A stretch of DNA of 64,000 nt. Source: Acidobacteriota bacterium (GTDB lineage: Bacteria > Acidobacteriota > Thermoanaerobaculia > Multivoradales > Multivoraceae). A program made the position numbers and the translations under genes. The notes beneath the pieces are model-generated. The model made no database searches, was not told the DNA's origin, and was given only the letters and a program-made list of their open reading frames with translations. Positions 49,071 through 58,292 of the stretch are shown piece after piece. How positions within the stretch are numbered: position 1 is the first letter of the stretch; each line of letters begins with the position of its first letter. Location: the NCBI GenBank assembly GCA_028875725.1, contig JAPPCR010000015.1, forward strand, positions 1 through 64,000. Direction: 5' to 3'.

Positions 49071-49349
49071 ATGTCCATCGTGCGCGCCGCCGAGGTCGTC
49101 GTGCTGCTCTGCACCGTGTACATCGCCTGCGGGCTGGTCTTCGCGCCGCTCTTCGCCTGGCGCGGCGCCGGACGCATTGATCCCGCCGCGAAAACGGCCG
49201 GGCTCGGGTTCCGCCTGATCATCCTCCCCGGCGTCGTCGCGCTGTGGCCCGTGCTGCTCTGGCGCTGGCGCGCCGGTCGGCAACCTCCGCCGGAAAGGAA
49301 CGCGCACCGCGACGCAGCCGCCGGCAGAGCGGGACAGGGCGCCGGATGA
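49071..49349 (+). CDS. Small membrane protein, start of a lipid/redox operon
   Basis: 92 residues with two hydrophobic helices (EVVVLLCTVYIACGLVFAPLF and LGFRLIILPGVVALWPVLLW). The C-terminus is short and charged. Its stop overlaps the next ATG (ATGA). I do not recognise a family. As the first of seven overlapping genes, it may help assemble the ferric-reductase/Rieske protein. Confidence 0.65.
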   Translation: MSIVRAAEVVVLLCTVYIACGLVFAPLFAWRGAGRIDPAAKTAGLGFRLIILPGVVALWPVLLWRWRAGRQPPPERNAHRDAAAGRAGQGAG

Positions 49350-49525
49350 TCCGCGCCCTGCGGCGGCGGCACCGCCTCGTCTGGACGGTGCTGTTCCCCA
49401 TCCTGGCGGTCCTGCTCGCCGCCGCCATCCTCCTCCGTCCCGAGCCGCCGCTCGTGGAGACCCTGCCCGAAGCACGCGCGTACATGCAAGACGAAACCGA
49501 ACCACAGCGGAATGAAGATCCGTGA
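49346..49525 (+). CDS. Small single-pass membrane protein
   Basis: 59 residues: short basic N-terminus, one helix (LVWTVLFPILAVLLAAAILL), then an acidic tail. It overlaps its neighbours on both sides by four bases, which argues for real translation despite the small size. Function unknown; possibly an accessory subunit of the reductase encoded next. Confidence 0.6.
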   Translation: MIRALRRRHRLVWTVLFPILAVLLAAAILLRPEPPLVETLPEARAYMQDETEPQRNEDP

Positions 49526-50592
49526 GCGCCGGATACCAGGCGGTCCTCTGGAACCGCAACAAGAAGCTCTACGACCTGATCATCGCCGTGGGCGTGGTGA
49601 TCTTCCTGGGCCTATTCGTCGGCATCGGCATCGCGACCAGAACCCAGGCGACGATCGAGACCCTGCTGATTCGCGGCTTCGGCGCCGGCGCGCTGCTGCT
49701 GCTGCACGTCGTGCTCGCCATCGGCCCGCTCTGCCGGCTGGACGGGCGGTTCCTGCCCCTGCTCTACAACCGCCGCCACCTCGGCGTCTGCACGTTCCTG
49801 CTGGCCCTGGCTCACGGCGGGTTCTCGATCGTCCAGTTCCACGGCCTCGGGGTCTTCAACCCGCTGGTCAGCGTGCTGGCGAGCAATGGGAACTACGACA
49901 GCCTGACCCAGTTCCCGTTCCAGGCGCTCGGCCTCGCGGCGCTGGTCATCCTGTTTCTGCTGGCGGCGACCTCGCACGACTTCTGGCTCGCGAACCTGAC
50001 GGCGCCGGTCTGGAAGTCGCTTCACATGCTGGTCTACGTGGCGTACGGCCTGATCCTGGTCCACGTGGCGCTGGGGAGCCTCCAGGTTCCAGAGCGGCCG
50101 CCGGCGCTGGCCGTCCTGCTGGGCATCGGCTTCGCCGGCATCGCCTCGTTGCACCTCGTGGCCGGCTGGCGCGAACGTGCCCTGGCGCCGCCCACCGAAG
50201 CGGAGGGCTCCGCAGTCAACGTCTGCGCCGTCTCCGACATCCCCCTCGACCGGGCCCGGATCTTCCTCCTCAGCGGCGAGCGGGTGGCCGTGTTTCGCTA
50301 TCGAGCGGACGGCGGCGAACGGATCGCGGCCGTCTCCAACGTCTGCCAGCACCAGAACGGCCCGCTGGGCGAAGGCCGGGTCATCGACGGCTGCATCACC
50401 TGCCCGTGGCATGGTTACCAGTACCGTCCCGAGGACGGCTGTTCGCCGCCACCGTTCACCGAGACGATTCCGACCTTCAACGTTCGCGTGGCGGGGGGTC
50501 GGGTGCTGGTCGATCCGCTGCCCAATCCGCCCGGAACGCATGCTGAACCGGCACGGCTCGGCACCGCGTCCGGCGCCGGGGAGCCCTCGTGA
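49522..50592 (+). CDS. Ferric-reductase-like membrane protein fused to Rieske domain
   Basis: 356 residues, GTG start in the previous stop (GTGA). About six helices with paired His (LLLHVVLAIG, LALAHGGFSIVQFHG, SLHMLVYVAYGLILVHVAL) match a ferric-reductase/cytochrome-b-type heme domain. The C-terminal third is a Rieske [2Fe-2S] fold with VCQHQNGPLGEG and ITCPWHGYQYRP (CxH and CxxH). It should move electrons across the membrane; the acceptor is unknown. Position suggests it supplies electrons to the lipid-modification genes downstream. Confidence 0.85.
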   Translation: MSAGYQAVLWNRNKKLYDLIIAVGVVIFLGLFVGIGIATRTQATIETLLIRGFGAGALLLLHVVLAIGPLCRLDGRFLPLLYNRRHLGVCTFLLALAHGGFSIVQFHGLGVFNPLVSVLASNGNYDSLTQFPFQALGLAALVILFLLAATSHDFWLANLTAPVWKSLHMLVYVAYGLILVHVALGSLQVPERPPALAVLLGIGFAGIASLHLVAGWRERALAPPTEAEGSAVNVCAVSDIPLDRARIFLLSGERVAVFRYRADGGERIAAVSNVCQHQNGPLGEGRVIDGCITCPWHGYQYRPEDGCSPPPFTETIPTFNVRVAGGRVLVDPLPNPPGTHAEPARLGTASGAGEPS

Positions 50593-50610
50593 CCGGCGAG
50601 CGCCACAACG

Positions 50611-50746
50611 GGTGTCGTCCATGAGCCCGCTGACGGGCTCACGGACCGGGTCGCGTGTGGCACGGAACGCGCCACCCGGGTGTCGTCCATGAGCCCGCTG
50701 ACGGGCTCACGGACCGGGTCGCGTGTGGCACGGAACGCGCCACCCG
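50611..50746 (+). repeat. 68-bp tandem duplication at a start codon
   Basis: The segment starting GGTGTCGTCCATGAGCCCGC occurs at 50611-50678 and again at 50679-50746. Each copy holds an ATG within a hairpin (GAGCCCG-CTGA-CGGGCTC). The period is not a multiple of three. The first-copy ATG (50621) opens a 23-codon frame ending in a TGA (50690-50692) that overlaps the ATG of the second copy (50689), so the duplication created a small upstream reading frame coupled to the real gene. Confidence 0.95.
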
Positions 50747-51630
50747 GGTTCTACGTCGGCTACGTCGACGAGACGCCGCCCGGTGTCTCGCGTTTCGCGC
50801 GCCGCGTCGCGATCGGCCTCCTGCTGCTGGCCGCGGTTCTCGGCGCCGTCCTGGCGCTGCTGCTGGAACGGTTCGACGAGGGCGTGTTCGAGTACGGCAC
50901 GGTGCGGGGCTACGAGGGTGAACTGCTCGTCGATCCGCATCCCCGGCTGCTCACCGCGGACGGACCGGCCGAGGGCTATCTGCTGGTTGGAGTCGGCAAG
51001 CACGGACTCGACGTGGACAGCGAGCCCAGCCCGCCCTGGACACCCTCGCCATCCAGGAAGACCGGGCTCTCGGGCACGCTGATCCGGAATCCGGAAGCGG
51101 CCATGCTCGAAGTGCATTCCCTCGAGCTTCCCGAGGGAGCGACCGAAGCTGGACCCGCCATCGAGCCGGACGCAACGGCCGCTCCGGCGACCAGCGGCTC
51201 GGCCCTCGACAGCGAGAGCGGCGGTCCGGAGGCCGAGGCAGCAACCAACGTCATTCGCGTAAGCGGACAGACCCTGGTGGGCGAGATCGTCGATACGAAG
51301 TGCTATCTCGGCGCCATGAAGCCGGGCCGCGGCAAACCCCACCGGGACTGCGCCTCGCTCTGCATCCGGGGTGGAATCCCGGCCGCGCTCCTGGTGCGGA
51401 CGGAAGGCGGAGAGCGGCACCTGGTCCATCTGCTGAACCCGCAGGGCCAGCCGTTGGGGCGCGAGCTCCTCGAGTGGGTGGGGGAACCGGTCGAGGTGTG
51501 GGGAACCCTGAGACGGCGCGACAACCGCCTGTTCCTGCGGACGATCACCATCAGACCGACACGCGCCCCGGTCCCATCCGTCGTCGTCCCGGCGGTGCGC
51601 GAACCCGGGACTGCAACAGCCGATGACTGA
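50689..51630 (+). CDS. Single-pass membrane protein with conserved Cys motif
   Basis: 313 residues from ATG 50689 (GTG 50680 is an alternative). A helix at about 42-62 (VAIGLLLLAAVLGAVLALLLE) anchors it. A periplasmic domain near residues 200-225 has VDTKCYLGAMKPGRGKPHRDCASLCIRGGIP in short form: three Cys spaced C-x(14)-C-x(3)-C, flanked by HLVHLLNPQG. I have no family name. It may bind a redox cofactor or metal and partner the Rieske protein. Its last eight bases overlap the acyltransferase gene. Confidence 0.75.
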   Translation: MSPLTGSRTGSRVARNAPPGFYVGYVDETPPGVSRFARRVAIGLLLLAAVLGAVLALLLERFDEGVFEYGTVRGYEGELLVDPHPRLLTADGPAEGYLLVGVGKHGLDVDSEPSPPWTPSPSRKTGLSGTLIRNPEAAMLEVHSLELPEGATEAGPAIEPDATAAPATSGSALDSESGGPEAEAATNVIRVSGQTLVGEIVDTKCYLGAMKPGRGKPHRDCASLCIRGGIPAALLVRTEGGERHLVHLLNPQGQPLGRELLEWVGEPVEVWGTLRRRDNRLFLRTITIRPTRAPVPSVVVPAVREPGTATADD

Positions 51631-52486
51631 ACCGGTACGCAGCAACGTCTCGGCAACCGCTTCGAGCGGCGGTACCGTTCCCAGCCCCGAACACCTGCCC
51701 GACGGCCAGATCGAAGCCGGCACCTACCGCCTGCGCTTCGCCCGAACCGCCGAGGACATCGACCGGCTGCTGACGCTGCGTTTCGAAGTCTTCAACCTGG
51801 AGCTGGGCGAGGGGCTGGACGAGTCCTACGAAACCGGCCGCGACACGGACGACTTTGACGCGAACTGTCACCACATGCTGGTGGAGCGAACCGACGGCAC
51901 CATGATCGGCACCTACCGGATGCAGACCGCCGCGATGGCGACCCGCGGCAACGGCTTCTACTCGGCCATCGAGTACGACCTGGACGCACTGCCCGGCAGC
52001 GTCCTCGAGCAATCGGTCGAGATCGGCCGCGCCTGTATCCACCGCCGGCACCGGAAACGGACCGTGTTGTTCCTGCTCTGGCAGGGCCTGGCCCGTTACA
52101 TGGTGCACAACCGGCTCCGCTACCTGTTCGGCTGCTGCTCCCTGACCAGCCAGGACCAGGCCGCCGGCATCCGGCTCTACAGGCAGCTCGTCGCCGCGGG
52201 AAAGGTCCGGCCCGACCTCGACGTGCCGGTCCTCGATCACGCCCGATGCGAGGCATCGCCCGAGGTCGTCGAGAACCGTCCGGACGTCGAGATACCGGCA
52301 CTGTTCGCGACCTATCTGCGCTACGGCGCCCTCGTCTGCAGCCGGCCGGCCATCGACCGCGACTTCAAGACGATCGACTACCTGGTGCTGATGGACACGG
52401 CCACGCTCAGCCGGCGCATCCGGCTGATCTTCGGACTCGACGGGGCACCGCGGGTCGAATCGGCGACGCACGCCGCCGACGCCTGA
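51623..52486 (+). CDS. N-acyltransferase of the OlsB/GNAT type
   Basis: 287 residues. TYRLRFARTAEDIDRLLTLRFEVFNLELGEG, then MIGTYRMQT, EIGRACIHRRHR and YLFGCCSLTS belong to the hemolysin-like GNAT family that includes ornithine-acyl-ACP N-acyltransferase (OlsB). It likely forms an amide between a 3-hydroxyacyl group and an amino acid. The PlsC-like gene four bases downstream would supply the second acyl group, as OlsA does. The exact amino acid is not deducible. Confidence 0.82.
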   Translation: MTEPVRSNVSATASSGGTVPSPEHLPDGQIEAGTYRLRFARTAEDIDRLLTLRFEVFNLELGEGLDESYETGRDTDDFDANCHHMLVERTDGTMIGTYRMQTAAMATRGNGFYSAIEYDLDALPGSVLEQSVEIGRACIHRRHRKRTVLFLLWQGLARYMVHNRLRYLFGCCSLTSQDQAAGIRLYRQLVAAGKVRPDLDVPVLDHARCEASPEVVENRPDVEIPALFATYLRYGALVCSRPAIDRDFKTIDYLVLMDTATLSRRIRLIFGLDGAPRVESATHAADA

Positions 52487-52490
52487 GGGA

Positions 52491-53303
52491 ATGCGCCTCC
52501 TGCCCGTCTGCCGGCTGGCCTGGCGTGGCCCGGCGTTCCTCCTCCTAACCCTGGCCGCCTGGCTGCCGCTCTTCGTCCTGAAGCCGTTTCTCGCACGCCG
52601 CTACCCGACGTGGCGGAAGGTCCGCGCCGGCATCATGCGCCGCTGGGGCCGCGCCTGCCTGGCCGTCCTGAGCTGCCGGGTCACGGTCCGGGGCGCGCCG
52701 CCGGCGGCGCCTTGCCTGCTGGTCTCAAACCACATCTCCTACGTCGACATCCTGGTCCTCGCGGCGCATTCGCCCGCCCGCTTCGTCTCCAAGGCCGAGA
52801 TCGCGGACTGGCCTCTGGCGGGCACCGTGTGCCGGACGGTCGACATCATCTTCGTCGACCGCGGCCGGCGCCGCGACGTGACCCGGGTCGGCGAACAGAT
52901 CGCCGAAGCCCTGGTGGCCGGCGACCCGGTCATCCTCTTCCCCGAGGGCACCTCGACCCCCGGCGATGCCGTGGCCACCCTCAAGCCCTCCCTGCTGGCG
53001 CCGGCCGCCGCCCGGGAACTCCCGGTCCACTGGTCCGTTCTGCGCTACGAGACACCGGATGACGAGGACCCCGCCTTCCTGAGCGTCGCCTGGTGGGGCG
53101 AGATGCCGATGACGCCGCACGCGCCCGAACTGCTCAAGCTCCGCCGGATCGATGCGGAACTCGAGTTCGGCGATGAATCGATCCGTCACGCCGATCGCAA
53201 GGAACTCGCCCGCGGGCTGCGGGCGCGGATGACCGCGGCGTTCCGCCCCATGACCTCGAGCGAGGAAGCTGCAGCCTCGGTCGGCGATCGCCGCTTCCCA
53301 TGA
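52491..53303 (+). CDS. 1-acylglycerol-3-phosphate-type acyltransferase (PlsC/OlsA-like)
   Basis: 270 residues. HxxxxD is H81-D86 (SNHISYVD), and FPEGTSTPGD carries E152. An N-terminal hydrophobic helix (FLLLTLAAWLPLFVL) anchors it to the membrane. It transfers an acyl chain to a lipid hydroxyl. Paired with the OlsB-like gene it could build an ornithine-lipid-type aminolipid. Its stop overlaps the next ATG (53300). Confidence 0.9.
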   Translation: MRLLPVCRLAWRGPAFLLLTLAAWLPLFVLKPFLARRYPTWRKVRAGIMRRWGRACLAVLSCRVTVRGAPPAAPCLLVSNHISYVDILVLAAHSPARFVSKAEIADWPLAGTVCRTVDIIFVDRGRRRDVTRVGEQIAEALVAGDPVILFPEGTSTPGDAVATLKPSLLAPAAARELPVHWSVLRYETPDDEDPAFLSVAWWGEMPMTPHAPELLKLRRIDAELEFGDESIRHADRKELARGLRARMTAAFRPMTSSEEAAASVGDRRFP

Positions 53304-55999
53304 CCACCCGCATGGGGCGCCGGTCCTGGCTTCGCATGGCGATCGGCGTGTACTGCGCGCTGCTCCTCGCTTCGACGGTCGTGCGGTTCGCTCGCGAGCA
53401 ACACCCGTCCGTGATTCCGCTCGAGTTTCCCGCCCCGGACGGCGAGTTCGTGCTGATGCGTTCCCCATTCAGCTTCAAGCCGACGATGGAGATCCCCGCA
53501 CCGAGTGGAGAAGGCACGCTGCGCATCGCATGGGACGAGACCGACTCACCGAACCCCGAATCGCTGCCCCTCGTGCTCCTCCATGGATCGCCTGGCAGCT
53601 CTGACAACTTCAACCGTCTCAAGGGGACGTTGCACTACGCGGCCCGGCCAGACGACGACGGCAGGACCGCCACGGTTCTCTCCGACTCCCTGATCCGCCG
53701 CACCATCGCACCCGATCTGCCTGGGTTCGGCGCTTCCGATCACCGGGTCGCCGACTACTCCTCGCGCGGTCACGCCGACTCGACGCTCAAGCTGCTCGAT
53801 CGACTAGAGGTCGAGCGGTTCCACGTGCTCGGTTTCAGCATGGGCGGCGCCGTCGCGCTCCATCTCGCCGACCAGGCGCCTGACCGGGTGGCCTCCATCA
53901 TCCTGATGTCGTCGATCGGCGTCCAGGAACTCGAACTCCTGGGCGACTACCGAGTCAACCACGGGCTTCATGGGCTCCAACTCGGCCTGTTCTGGGGCCT
54001 CCGCAACCTGGTCCCCCACTTCGGCGCCCTCGACATGGCCGTCGCCCGTTCCTACGCCCGCAACTTCTACGACACGGACCAGCGGCCGCTGCGCGGCATC
54101 CTGGAGTCCCTCGAAGCGCCGGTCTTCATCATTCACGGCGCGCAGGATCCGCTGGTGCCGGCCGCCGCGGCACGGGAGCATCACCGGATCGTGCCGCACA
54201 GCGAGCTGTGGATGCGGCCGGACAGCCACTTCTTCCTGTTCCGCAGCGGCGAGGGCCTTGCAGCCCGGATCGAGGACTTCGTCAGCCGGGTCGAGGCGGG
54301 CGAGGCGGCCACGCGCGCCGATGCCGAAGCGGAGCGGCTGCGGCGGGCGGCACTGCCGTTCGACGACCTGGACCTGCCGCCCTTCACCGGGCCCGCCCTG
54401 CTGATCGTCTTCCTGCTCCTCGTGTTCGCCGCGTATGCCAGCGAGGACCTGACCTGCATCACAGCCGGCCTGCTCGTGGCCCAGGGGCGGCTCGACTTCC
54501 CCGTCGCCGTCGCCGCCTGTTACGTCGGCATCCTGAGCAGCGACCTCGGCATCGCCTGGCTGGCGCGCGTCCTGGGCCGGCCGGCTCTCAGATTGCCGCC
54601 TTTCAGCTGGTGGGTCAGCGAAGCCAGGTTCGAAGAAGCCTCCGCCTGGCTGCGGCGGCGAGCCCTGGTCGTCGTGCTGGTCAGCCGCTTCCTGCCCGGA
54701 ACGCGGCTGCCGACGTGCCTCGCCGCCGGCATCCTGCGCACGAGCCTGCTCCGCTTCTGCTTCTACTTCGCTCTCGCCGTCTCGATCTGGACGCCCGCCT
54801 TCGTCGGCGTCAACGCGCTCCTGGGGCGCGAGGCGGTCGAGCGCTTCGGCGGCCGCCTGCCGGGGGGGCTGCTCGGCGCCGCGCTGGCGCTGGCCGTCGT
54901 CATCTTCATCGTACGGAGCGTGGTCGTGCCGCTCTTCACCTGGCGCGGCCGCCGCCTCTGGCGCGGCCGGCTGCTGCGCATCCGTCACTGGGAGTTCTGG
55001 CCGATGTGGGCGTTCTACCCGCCGCTCGCGCTCTACATCCTCTGGCAGGGTCTGCGGCGCGGTCGCCTGACGGCCTTTACCGCGATCAACCCCGCCATGC
55101 CGCTCGGCGGCCTGCTGGGCGAGTCGAAGAGCGACATCCTCGACGGACTGGCCGGAATCGGGGCGGCACTGCCGGCCTGGAGGCGCATGCCGACCGGCAG
55201 CCCGGAGGAACGCATCGCGGCCCTGGACCGGTTCCTGGAGGAGGAGAACCTCGGCTACCCGGTCGTGCTCAAGCCGGACACCGGCGAGCGCGGCCGCGGC
55301 GTCGCCGTCGCGCGCTCCGAGGCCGAAGCGGCGACGTTCTTCGCAGCGACCCCCGGGCCCGCGCTCGCGCAGGAGTACATGGCGGGCGAGGAGTACGGCG
55401 TGTTCTGGGCCCGCCACCCAGGCCGGCGCGACGGGCACGTCTTCTCGATCACCCACAAGGTCCGCCCCACCGTGACCGGCGACGGAACCAGCACGCTGGA
55501 GCGGTTGATCCTGGACGACCCGCGCGCGGTCGCCATCGCGCACATCTACCGGCGGGAGCATCCCGAAGCGGCGACGCATGTCCCTGCCGCCGGCGAGAGA
55601 GTCGAGCTGACCCAGGTCGGCGCCCACTCGCGCGGGACGATCTTCCTGGACGCCAACGACCTGCACACCCCGGAACTGGAACGAGCGATGAACGCGATCT
55701 GCACCGCCTACGACGGGTTCGACTTCGGCCGCTTCGACGTACGCGTCCCGAGCGCCGAGGCGCTACGGCGCGGCGAAGGTCTCCGTGTGCTGGAAGTGAA
55801 CGGCGTGACGTCGGAGGCCACCCACATGTACGACCGTCGCCACGGCTTCCTCGCCGCTCACGCGATCCTGCGGCAGCAGTGGAAGCTCGCCTTCGACCTG
55901 GCGGAGGAACGCATCAGCGAAGGTGTCCGACCGGCCACGGTGAGCCGGATCCTCCGCGCCGTGCGGGTCGAACGACGAACCCGCCGCCGCGCGGCGTAA
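53300..55999 (+). CDS. Three-domain fusion: alpha/beta-hydrolase, DedA membrane domain, ATP-grasp ligase
   Basis: 899 residues. 1-30: signal/anchor helix. 90-330: alpha/beta-hydrolase with nucleophile S180 (LGFSMGGAVAL), acid D283 (AQDPLVP) and H310 (PDSHFF). 365-540: DedA/SNARE-associated (VTT) domain, with E382 (YASEDLTCITAGLL) and SRFLPGTRLPTCLAAG matching the family's R/P/G motif. 565-600: helix pair HWEFWPMWAFYPPLALYI. 640-880: ATP-grasp, with K658 (PVVLKPDTGERGRGVAV), E698, D813 (GRFDVRV) and E832/N834 (LEVNG). The domains would respectively cleave an ester, move or flip a lipid, and ligate a carboxylate to an amine. All three catalytic sets appear intact. It follows the OlsB- and PlsC-like genes in the same operon. 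Confidence 0.88.
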   Translation: MTTRMGRRSWLRMAIGVYCALLLASTVVRFAREQHPSVIPLEFPAPDGEFVLMRSPFSFKPTMEIPAPSGEGTLRIAWDETDSPNPESLPLVLLHGSPGSSDNFNRLKGTLHYAARPDDDGRTATVLSDSLIRRTIAPDLPGFGASDHRVADYSSRGHADSTLKLLDRLEVERFHVLGFSMGGAVALHLADQAPDRVASIILMSSIGVQELELLGDYRVNHGLHGLQLGLFWGLRNLVPHFGALDMAVARSYARNFYDTDQRPLRGILESLEAPVFIIHGAQDPLVPAAAAREHHRIVPHSELWMRPDSHFFLFRSGEGLAARIEDFVSRVEAGEAATRADAEAERLRRAALPFDDLDLPPFTGPALLIVFLLLVFAAYASEDLTCITAGLLVAQGRLDFPVAVAACYVGILSSDLGIAWLARVLGRPALRLPPFSWWVSEARFEEASAWLRRRALVVVLVSRFLPGTRLPTCLAAGILRTSLLRFCFYFALAVSIWTPAFVGVNALLGREAVERFGGRLPGGLLGAALALAVVIFIVRSVVVPLFTWRGRRLWRGRLLRIRHWEFWPMWAFYPPLALYILWQGLRRGRLTAFTAINPAMPLGGLLGESKSDILDGLAGIGAALPAWRRMPTGSPEERIAALDRFLEEENLGYPVVLKPDTGERGRGVAVARSEAEAATFFAATPGPALAQEYMAGEEYGVFWARHPGRRDGHVFSITHKVRPTVTGDGTSTLERLILDDPRAVAIAHIYRREHPEAATHVPAAGERVELTQVGAHSRGTIFLDANDLHTPELERAMNAICTAYDGFDFGRFDVRVPSAEALRRGEGLRVLEVNGVTSEATHMYDRRHGFLAAHAILRQQWKLAFDLAEERISEGVRPATVSRILRAVRVERRTRRRAA

Positions 56000-56035: not shown

Positions 56036-56536
56036 CTACCCGGCCTTCGCGGGCGTCTTCTTCTTCGCCGCCCGCCGCCGCGGTTTCGGCTTCTCAAGCG
56101 CATCGAGCCGCGCCTCGATCGCGCTCAGCCGTTCGATCACGGCCTCCAGGTCCGCCTGGCCGGGCACGCCGAGTTTCTCGAGTCGGCGCTCCAGGTGCTC
56201 GTCGATTCCCGTCCGCGCCTTCGACCTGGTCTGCTCGAAGCCGCTTCGCGCCTTCGACTTGGTCTGTTCGATCCCCTTCTCGGCCGCGGAACGCACCTGC
56301 TGAACCTTCTCCTCGGCCTTGTCCCGCCAGTCGCTCAGGGACTCCCTGCCCTGGCTCTCGACCTTCGCGCCGCGGGCGACCAGCCGGTCGAAGATCTTGG
56401 CGCCCACATCTGCCGCCTCGCCCGCTACGCCGGCGCCGGCGAGCGCCACCTTGTGGGCCGTTTCGACGGCCGACTCAACCACCGACCGCGGCTTCGATTC
56501 GCTATCTCTGGTTTCCGTCGCGGATGCTGCTGTCAT
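56036..56536 (-). CDS. Phasin-like coiled-coil protein
   Basis: 166 residues from ATG 56536, which overlaps the stop of the dioxygenase gene. SVVESAVETAHKVALAGAGVAGEAADVGAKIFDRLVARGAKVE resembles the PHA-granule-associated protein family (PhaF/PhaI). The middle is a long charged coil with tandem GIEQTKSKARSGFEQTRSKARTGI. The C-terminus is a basic KPKPRRRAAKKKTPAKAG tail, which in PhaF binds DNA. Localisation to polyester granules or the nucleoid is inferred. Confidence 0.75.
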   Translation of the reverse strand: MTAASATETRDSESKPRSVVESAVETAHKVALAGAGVAGEAADVGAKIFDRLVARGAKVESQGRESLSDWRDKAEEKVQQVRSAAEKGIEQTKSKARSGFEQTRSKARTGIDEHLERRLEKLGVPGQADLEAVIERLSAIEARLDALEKPKPRRRAAKKKTPAKAG

Positions 56537-57318
56537 CTGCTCATCCCCCTTGTCTCCGCCAACCGCCGCTTCACGGTCTCGATGGGGTTGCGGTAGTCCA
56601 CCGTGCCCAGACCGCGGTTGGTCAGCTTGTAACCGATCAACGCCTGGAGCTTCTCGGGCATTTCCACCACGACTTCCCACGGCACGCCGACGAACTGGTT
56701 CTCCCGCTGCTTGAGCCACGCCAGGTTGAAGTTGAAGTTGAGGGAGCGTCGATACCCGTTCTGCGTCGAGTTGCCGCCGCCCCGGTGCCAGACGGCGCCG
56801 TCCCACAGGAAGAGCGCCCCGGCCGGCATCTCCACCGTGATGGTCGGTACGTCGGGATCGACCGGATCGGCCGAGCGATGGCTGCCGGGAACGATCTCCG
56901 TGGCCCCGTTCTCCACCGTGAACGGATCGAGGGCGATCAGCGTGTTGGCGATCAGCGGAACGTGCGGCCGCGGAAGCGGATAGTGGCCGTCGTCCTGGTG
57001 CATCCGCTGGGGACGGTCTCCCGGTCCGGGCCGCATCGCGGCGACGCCCGAGACCTGGTAGTCGGGGCCGAGCACGGCCTCCACCAGCCCCAGCAGACGA
57101 TCGTCCATGAGGAGCTCGTCGACGGCCCGCGTCTTGGCCAGCAGGTTGTGCGTATGGATCGTCTGCTGGCCGTAGTCGTCCGTCATCCGGCTGCCGATCT
57201 CGTCGAAGACGGGCGCAAGGTCGCGGAGCAGCCGCTCCAACATCACTTCGTCCAGAAAGTCGGGCTCAACGGTGTAGCCGTCTTCGCGGACGCGTCGTGC
57301 TGCGCTTTCGATGTCCAT
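56533..57318 (-). CDS. Phytanoyl-CoA dioxygenase-family protein
   Basis: 261 residues from the ATG at 57318; an in-frame ATG at 57405 would add 29 residues overlapping the divergent hydrolase gene. Fe(II)/2-oxoglutarate ligands: HxD in QRMHQDDGHYPLP and distal His in AVWHRGGGN, with the 2OG-binding Arg in GYRRSLNFNF. It hydroxylates a lipid or small molecule. Co-translated with the phasin-like gene. Confidence 0.9.
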   Translation of the reverse strand: MDIESAARRVREDGYTVEPDFLDEVMLERLLRDLAPVFDEIGSRMTDDYGQQTIHTHNLLAKTRAVDELLMDDRLLGLVEAVLGPDYQVSGVAAMRPGPGDRPQRMHQDDGHYPLPRPHVPLIANTLIALDPFTVENGATEIVPGSHRSADPVDPDVPTITVEMPAGALFLWDGAVWHRGGGNSTQNGYRRSLNFNFNLAWLKQRENQFVGVPWEVVVEMPEKLQALIGYKLTNRGLGTVDYRNPIETVKRRLAETRGMSR

Positions 57319-57386
57319 GGATTCCTGCCGAGAGTGGGCTGATTGGCGATGCGCGGCAGCGTAACAAAGCAGGTAGCCTTCACTCC

Positions 57387-58292
57387 ATGAGAAGAAGTAC
57401 GACAAATCTGCGACCGAAGTTCCGGACCGTTCTGACGACGCTGATCGCGCTCGTCGCCTTCACCGGCACCTACGCGCAAGCCGACGCCTCAACCCAGTCC
57501 TTCACTGCCAGCGACGGCGTCGAGATCCACTACCTCGTCGAGGGCCGCGGCGACCCGGTCGTGCTGCTTCACGGCATCACAGGTACGGCCGCCTCGAACT
57601 GGGGCGGCCCCGGCATCATCGGCCGGCTGGCCGAAGAGTTCCAGGTCATCTCTGTCGACCAGCGCGGCCACGGCATGAGCGGCAAGCCGCACGACCCCGC
57701 GAGCTACGGCGAGCGCATGGCCCTGGACGTCGTCGACCTGCTCGACCATTTGCGGCTGCAGCAGGCGCACGTCGTCGGCTACTCGATGGGCGGCTTCATC
57801 ACGATGAAACTCGTCGCCCTGGCCCCTGACCGGCTGATGTCGGCGGTTGTCGGCGGCGCCGGCTGGTCGAGCCCCGAACTGCGCGACGACGCGATGTTCG
57901 ACGCGCTGGCCGCCTCCCTCGAGGCGGGTAAGGGCGGCGGTCCCCTGGTCGAGTTCCTGTGGCCCGGCGAGGAACCACCGACCCCCGAACAGGTTCAGGC
58001 GATCGGCCAGGCGATGGTCGCCTCGAACGACCAGATGGCCCTGGCGGCCGTCGTCCGCGGCATGCCCGGCCTCGACGTAAGCGCCGAACTCCTCCGCATC
58101 AACAAGGTGCCGACCCTCAACATCATCGGCAGCGACGATCCCCTGAAGCCCAACGCCGACGCCCTCGTATCTGTCATGAAGGAGCACCGCCTCCACATCA
58201 TCGAAGGCGCCAACCACATGAACACCCTGAGCTCCCCCGAGTTCCTCGACACCGTCCGCGCCTTCTTCATCGAACTCTGCAACTGCGCGTAG
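57387..58292 (+). CDS. Exported alpha/beta-fold hydrolase
   Basis: 301 residues. Signal peptide (VLTTLIALVAFTGTYAQA). Oxyanion motif VVLLHGITG, nucleophile VGYSMGGFITM, acid in IIGSDDPLKPN and His in IEGANHMNTL. Periplasmic esterase or lactonase of unknown substrate. Divergent from the phytanoyl-CoA dioxygenase gene. Confidence 0.88.
   Translation: MRRSTTNLRPKFRTVLTTLIALVAFTGTYAQADASTQSFTASDGVEIHYLVEGRGDPVVLLHGITGTAASNWGGPGIIGRLAEEFQVISVDQRGHGMSGKPHDPASYGERMALDVVDLLDHLRLQQAHVVGYSMGGFITMKLVALAPDRLMSAVVGGAGWSSPELRDDAMFDALAASLEAGKGGGPLVEFLWPGEEPPTPEQVQAIGQAMVASNDQMALAAVVRGMPGLDVSAELLRINKVPTLNIIGSDDPLKPNADALVSVMKEHRLHIIEGANHMNTLSSPEFLDTVRAFFIELCNCA

Follow-up and report, generated by a model that had tools for sequence, protein, structure and literature searches.

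Which pathway would need an alpha/beta-hydrolase, a DedA-type membrane domain and an ATP-grasp ligase in a single polypeptide? This question is raised by a gene in a 64,000-nt stretch of DNA (the window; all coordinates are positions within it unless a locus is named) from a metagenome-assembled genome (MAG) of Acidobacteriota (Thermoanaerobaculia). The open reading frame (ORF) begins with ATG, is open throughout and closes a tight run of overlapping or near-touching genes, with overlaps of 4 and 8 bases, that extends from MemA to the gene of a PlsC-like acyltransferase (Table 1). As the original prediction had stated, the fusion gene overlaps this PlsC-like gene (by 4 bases), which itself follows an OlsB-like gene. 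These are the two acyltransferase families of the OlsB/OlsA ornithine-lipid pathway, adjacent and in the same order; that pathway as known lacks parts of the ATP-grasp, DedA and hydrolase kinds. The fusion probably finishes and exports a phosphorus-free amino-acid lipid by steps that are undescribed.

The fusion protein consists of three intact domains

In Pfam scans the hydrolase part matches Abhydrolase_1 with 97 bits (cut-off 25.8) and the DedA part matches VTT (PF09335) with 47.2 bits (cut-off 33.9). The ATP-grasp part stays slightly under all Pfam cut-offs (RimK, 19.6 bits versus 21), and a standalone copy from Bacteroidota (locus L221:6600-7631) has no Pfam match at all at E 0.01. With scores under or near the cut-offs, this ATP-grasp family is easily overlooked by annotation pipelines. 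Its assignment comes from the fold: an AlphaFold model of the domain alone (predicted local distance difference test (pLDDT) 89.8, predicted template modelling score (pTM) 0.87) has the cyanophycin synthetase CphA1 as its nearest solved structure, with Z 17.0 across 273 residues and the N-terminal part included, followed by LysX/ArgX, glutathione synthetase GshF, RimK and Ddl. CphA1 is a soluble polymer synthetase, whereas the ATP-grasp domain of the fusion is joined to the membrane, to which a conserved WEFWP..YPP segment ties it.

The catalytic residues S180/D283/H310 and K658/E832 and the SRFLPGTR motif are found where the original prediction had placed them. Among 39 aligned fusions S180 is kept in 38, while D283, H310, E382, D383 and, within SRFLPGTR, R463, P466, G467 and R469 are invariant, as are E608-S609-K610, K658, E698, R742, D813, E832 and N834 of the ATP-grasp part. 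This conservation argues that all three domains are under selection as working parts.

The hydrolase model shows an ordinary esterase fold, with Z 28.1 to 4uhd and 24.9 to the phospholipase A PlaF of Pseudomonas aeruginosa (6i8w). PlaF carries its hydrolase on a single N-terminal anchor and is not fused to other domains; the likeness is an analogy only, as a number of soluble esterases reach somewhat higher Z values (up to 28.1). A full-length model reached a mean pLDDT of 86.4 and a pTM of 0.67, so the single domains can be relied upon and their mutual placement cannot. The predicted topology of one anchor, two re-entrant hairpins and three crossing helices is well supported. Three stretches are rich in lysine and arginine (means over the 39 sequences: 4.5 at the N-terminus, 5.1 at residues 425-449 and 6.7 at 544-568), and by the positive-inside rule these would place the hydrolase outside and the ATP-grasp domain inside. 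The predicted helices agree with the DedA core described in PMC10127716. Like members of DedA subfamily COG0586 such as UptA and YghB, the VTT domain combines two re-entrant and three crossing helices with an acidic pair (E382/D383) and two arginines six residues apart; the siting of these four residues at the re-entrant tips rests on predicted helices.

The domain order is conserved across phyla

The fusion is present at full length in nearly all searched genomes of the window's genus and in most of its order, a few copies being split by contig ends. Among named relatives the nearest come from Acidobacteriota MAGs ('Holophagales', Thermoanaerobaculia); the ATP-grasp domain of one of them, L046, is 97% identical. 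Loci with the ATP-grasp family come from Acidobacteriota, Calditrichota, KSB1, Gemmatimonadota, Planctomycetota, Verrucomicrobiota, Bacteroidota and others; the complete domain order recurs across Acidobacteriota, Bacteroidota, Verrucomicrobiota, Planctomycetota, Gemmatimonadota and Calditrichota. Fusions from different phyla keep 40-50% identity, and this recurrence of the order over phyla rules out both a chance ORF and an assembly error. Thus the three-domain architecture proposed originally was borne out by Pfam, by fold and by conservation. Among 80 named loci, hydrolase, VTT and ATP-grasp share a single frame in 58, VTT and ATP-grasp in 14, and the ATP-grasp domain stands alone in 8.

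The ATP-grasp family is associated with aminolipid synthesis genes

The association of the fusion and of the ATP-grasp family with aminolipid synthesis genes is well supported. Relatives at the order level retain the arrangement Rieske - P4 - OlsB - PlsC - fusion. We searched 296 genomes of Bacteroidota: OlsB lies 2.4-3.0 kb from the fusion in all 26 genomes that contain one, and OlsB or OlsF was detected in 18 of the 30 genomes with a standalone ATP-grasp gene and in 74/240 of the others. Across 297 Acidobacteriota genomes OlsB/OlsF accompanies the ATP-grasp family in 35/39 cases, compared with 29/258 genomes that lack the family (p = 1.7e-23); when the window's own genus is left out the counts are 24/28 versus 29/258 (p = 1.9e-16). 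The recurrence of the domain order and of OlsB/PlsC-type neighbours that the original prediction had proposed to look for was therefore found.

The linkage has also been remade in different ways. At loci that show no adjacent OlsB, some of them cut by a contig end, OlsB or OlsF is encoded elsewhere in 25 of the 26 genomes. OlsF takes the place of OlsB/OlsA in Vibrio, Photobacterium and some Verrucomicrobiota. Separated parts mostly do not stand among unrelated neighbours: ATP-grasp and then OlsB follow each other as separate genes in Variovorax, VTT, ATP-grasp and OlsF are separate genes in Vibrio and Photobacterium, and in Paracoccus three adjacent genes encode ATP-grasp, hydrolase and VTT. 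Other recurring neighbours are DinB-like, TANGO2/NRDE, YHS and DoxX-like proteins.

The two acyltransferases of the window were named correctly at the level of the family, and both stay far under the equivalog cut-offs for ornithine-lipid enzymes: the OlsB-like protein scores 129.9 and 123.6 bits against the NCBIfam OlsB models (cut-offs 350 and 320), the OlsA/PlsC-like protein, with the sequences VSNHISYVD and LFPEGTS, 133.4 bits against the lyso-ornithine lipid O-acyltransferase model (cut-off 300). Ornithine is therefore only a candidate for the amino acid of the lipid.

Proposed function and alternatives

On balance we favour the reading that the fusion serves to complete and export a phosphorus-free aminolipid of the ornithine-lipid type. 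This reading starts from computed features, namely the domains with their intact residues, their conservation, the predicted topology and the coupling to OlsB/OlsF; from these we infer substrates, direction of ligation, flipping and the role of the hydrolase. On the cytoplasmic side, the OlsB-like and OlsA/PlsC-like enzymes would build an amino-acid lipid with an N-linked and an O-linked acyl chain. The ATP-grasp domain, positioned at the inner membrane face, would convert a carboxylate, most likely the lipid's own alpha-carboxylate by analogy with cyanophycin synthetase, RimK and glutathione synthetase, into an acyl phosphate; its coupling with an amino acid or another small amine would yield a conjugated headgroup. 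Next, the DedA/VTT domain may carry the lipid to the other side of the inner membrane, with the proton motive force as the probable driver, and there the anchored periplasmic hydrolase could trim or transacylate it. That one polypeptide spans the inner membrane to perform cytoplasmic ATP-dependent conjugation, proton-driven flipping and periplasmic ester editing on one and the same lipid is a possibility we hold tentatively. Of the originally proposed synthesis, movement and ligation of an aminolipid, it is the genomic association that stands, and the ligated group, its direction and the hydrolase's role stay at the level of proposals.

Several observations weigh against this assignment. Twelve of the 30 Bacteroidota genomes with a standalone ATP-grasp gene have no detected OlsB/OlsF, and the neighbours of standalone ATP-grasp genes in Komagataeibacter and Azospirillum are unrelated (in Komagataeibacter, of the Acetobacteraceae, the ATP-grasp genes lie on plasmids among iron and arsenic genes without Ols neighbours); other substrates are therefore conceivable for the family as well. 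The co-occurrence p-values ignore shared ancestry within a phylum. As many lineages lack the hydrolase (the 14 VTT-ATP-grasp and 8 ATP-grasp-only loci above), its step is not essential to the core. Finally, PMC10127716 ties an acidic pair and two arginines to flippases that move the anionic lipid undecaprenyl phosphate, and since the VTT domain has these residues it could move undecaprenyl phosphate instead.

This last point leads to a different account, in which the protein flips undecaprenyl phosphate (or phospholipid), has accessory enzymes attached and stands next to OlsB/PlsC only through a general grouping of envelope genes. The VTT domain does match the NCBIfam model of UptA, at 51.9 bits and hence under the cut-off of 250, and has the residues listed for COG0586 flippases in PMC10127716. 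However, linkage and co-occurrence are specific to OlsB/OlsF, in several phyla and also where the genes are separate, and some OlsB-linked ATP-grasp proteins have no VTT domain (L110, L120, L121); we regard a flippase of this kind as improbable. A less remote, though still unlikely, variant reverses the polarity of the ligase: the ATP-grasp domain would activate a free amino acid at its carboxylate and attach it to a free amine of the lipid (in ornithine this could be the delta-amine), so that an aminoacylated cationic lipid results. Ornithine-type lipids do offer a free amine, and Ddl, whose phosphorylated substrate is a small amino acid, is among the structural neighbours, with Z 13-14, a modest gap to the top folds. 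Against this, CphA1 and the other top folds (GshF, RimK, LysX/ArgX) activate the carboxylate of their larger substrate.

The hydrolase, in turn, might be an O-acyltransferase that replaces or assists OlsA, like the planctomycete OlsI, an alpha/beta-hydrolase-fold lyso-ornithine lipid O-acyltransferase (PMC12493201). No PlsC gene lies between OlsB and the fusion at six loci (L026, L027, L029, L073, L077, L090), but PlsC and hydrolase are both present at most OlsB-linked loci, the window included. Hydrolases near GH3 genes in planctomycete genomes match our hydrolase profile weakly (E ~1e-4), and the predicted periplasmic location would exclude an acyl carrier protein-bound donor. We consider such an acyltransferase the least probable of these alternatives.

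Comparison with known systems

From the sequence, the locus appears to extend the OlsBA-type aminolipid pathway by an added module of putative conjugation and transport. In aminolipid synthesis by the OlsH/OlsI pathway of Singulisphaera (PMC12493201), too, an amide bond is formed with ATP and an alpha/beta-hydrolase takes part. There, OlsH is a GH3 enzyme that forms the N-acyl bond and OlsI is a separate protein; in the window OlsB forms the N-acyl bond, so the ATP-grasp domain must act at a further step. Conjugated headgroups like that of the proposed product are found in cerilipin, the ornithine-taurine lipid of Gluconobacter cerinus, and in serine-glycine dipeptide lipids. Cerilipin is the nearest chemical precedent; PMC12493201 gives no gene for its 'taurine transfer', and the serine ligase of the serine-glycine lipids is marked unknown in PMC12746155. 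We considered whether the ATP-grasp family provides either activity. As the missing serine ligase it seems less likely: in the two genomes that show a Bacteroidales 16S signature (G683, G691; n = 2 only) there is a GlsB-like gene and no ATP-grasp gene of this family. The connection to cerilipin is only a lead, drawn from the literature and from the matches in Komagataeibacter, likewise a member of the Acetobacteraceae, with their iron and arsenic neighbours. DedA fusions to rhodanese and to PAP2 are listed in PMC10127716, whose passages on the subject that we read do not mention a fusion to ATP-grasp or hydrolase. In agreement with the original prediction, which knew of no such pathway, we found no described system that combines DedA, ATP-grasp and aminolipid synthesis in the literature (open PubMed Central set).

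Neighbouring genes and side observations

Table 1. Features of the fusion locus in the window
Feature	Position	Strand	Evidence or remark
MemA, small membrane protein, no family	49071-49349	+	First gene in conserved block; homologs upstream of ferric-reductase/Rieske gene at many loci
MemB, small membrane protein, no family	49346-49525	+	Position as MemB of L026, L029, L077, L090
Ferric_reduct membrane domain and Rieske 2Fe-2S domain protein	49522-50592	+	Conserved neighbour; Pfam Rieske 54.1 bits, Ferric_reduct 49.5 bits
P4, membrane-anchored, DTKCYLGAMKPGRGKPHRDCA motif, no family	50680-51630	+	Kept beside Rieske gene
OlsB-like N-acyltransferase (GNAT, PF13444)	51623-52486	+	Pfam 97 bits, cut-off 22.4
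OlsA/PlsC-like O-acyltransferase, HX4D and FPEGT motifs	52491-53303	+	Pfam Acyltransferase PF01553 73.2 bits, cut-off 23
Fusion: anchor, alpha/beta-hydrolase, DedA/VTT, ATP-grasp	53300-55999	+	899 aa
N-terminal transmembrane anchor, N-in (predicted), residues 13-30	53336-53389	+	Hydrophobic peak at 19 over 39 sequences, ~4.5 K/R ahead
Alpha/beta-hydrolase, triad S180/D283/H310, predicted periplasmic, residues 56-332	53465-54295	+	Pfam, charge pattern, alignment, fold
DedA/VTT domain, acidic pair E382/D383, R463 and R469, residues 363-543	54386-54928	+	VTT match, invariant residues, predicted helices
Interfacial helix and ATP-grasp, K658/E698/D813/E832/N834, predicted cytoplasmic, residues 565-890	54992-55969	+	Fold, charges, alignment

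The Ferric_reduct and Rieske protein is kept throughout the order with 60-68% identity. P4 gave no match in Pfam and NCBIfam scans, and the similarity of the window's MemB to that of its relatives is weak. The pair at 49522-51630, that is, the Ferric_reduct and Rieske protein and the family-less protein with the motif KCYLGxMxPGxGKxHRxCA, forms a conserved neighbour of aminolipid genes in several phyla. Just downstream of the fusion and convergent with it lie genes for a phasin-like protein and a PhyH dioxygenase (56036-57405, - strand), which were found next to the fusion only within the window's genus. A tRNA-Leu called by ARAGORN inside the OlsB-like gene (51922-52019, - strand) has no Rfam match at the gathering score and is probably a false positive, and long antisense ORFs such as 53804-55666 (- strand) are read as shadow ORFs of a GC-rich genome, not as genes. 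A scan for promoters and terminators gave no signal exceeding that of shuffled sequences.

Outside the window's genus, the ATP-grasp family repeatedly shares operons with TANGO2/NRDE (PF05742) and DinB-like proteins (L061:5316-6110, L064:6334-7086, L221:5879-6586 and others), a partnership that may be relevant to what TANGO2 proteins do, which is unsettled. At L227 two ATP-grasp copies flank TANGO2. At Bacteroidota loci with a standalone ATP-grasp gene (L220, L221, L222, L227, L228) the next gene often encodes a LysE-like membrane protein of ~218 aa, which perhaps substitutes for the VTT domain; the scanned copy has no Pfam match.

Significance

By one estimate about half of the sequenced bacterial species produce lipids of the ornithine-lipid type, and the known conjugated headgroups are ornithine-taurine and glycine-serine (PMC12493201). 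In the literature (open PubMed Central set) we found no gene named for conjugated headgroups such as ornithine-taurine or for the passage of aminolipids across the inner membrane. In one recent study a peptide-bond enzyme of aminolipid synthesis was sought by Pfam domain (PMC12746155), an approach that would miss the present ATP-grasp family, which is invisible or nearly invisible to Pfam. As a module that is spread over many phyla and nearly always accompanied by OlsB/OlsF, the fusion and its relatives offer named genes for the questions of aminolipid conjugation and transport. If the three-step polypeptide acts as proposed, no earlier route to an aminolipid with a conjugated headgroup would have been defined genetically, and its flippase would be the first one dedicated to aminolipids.

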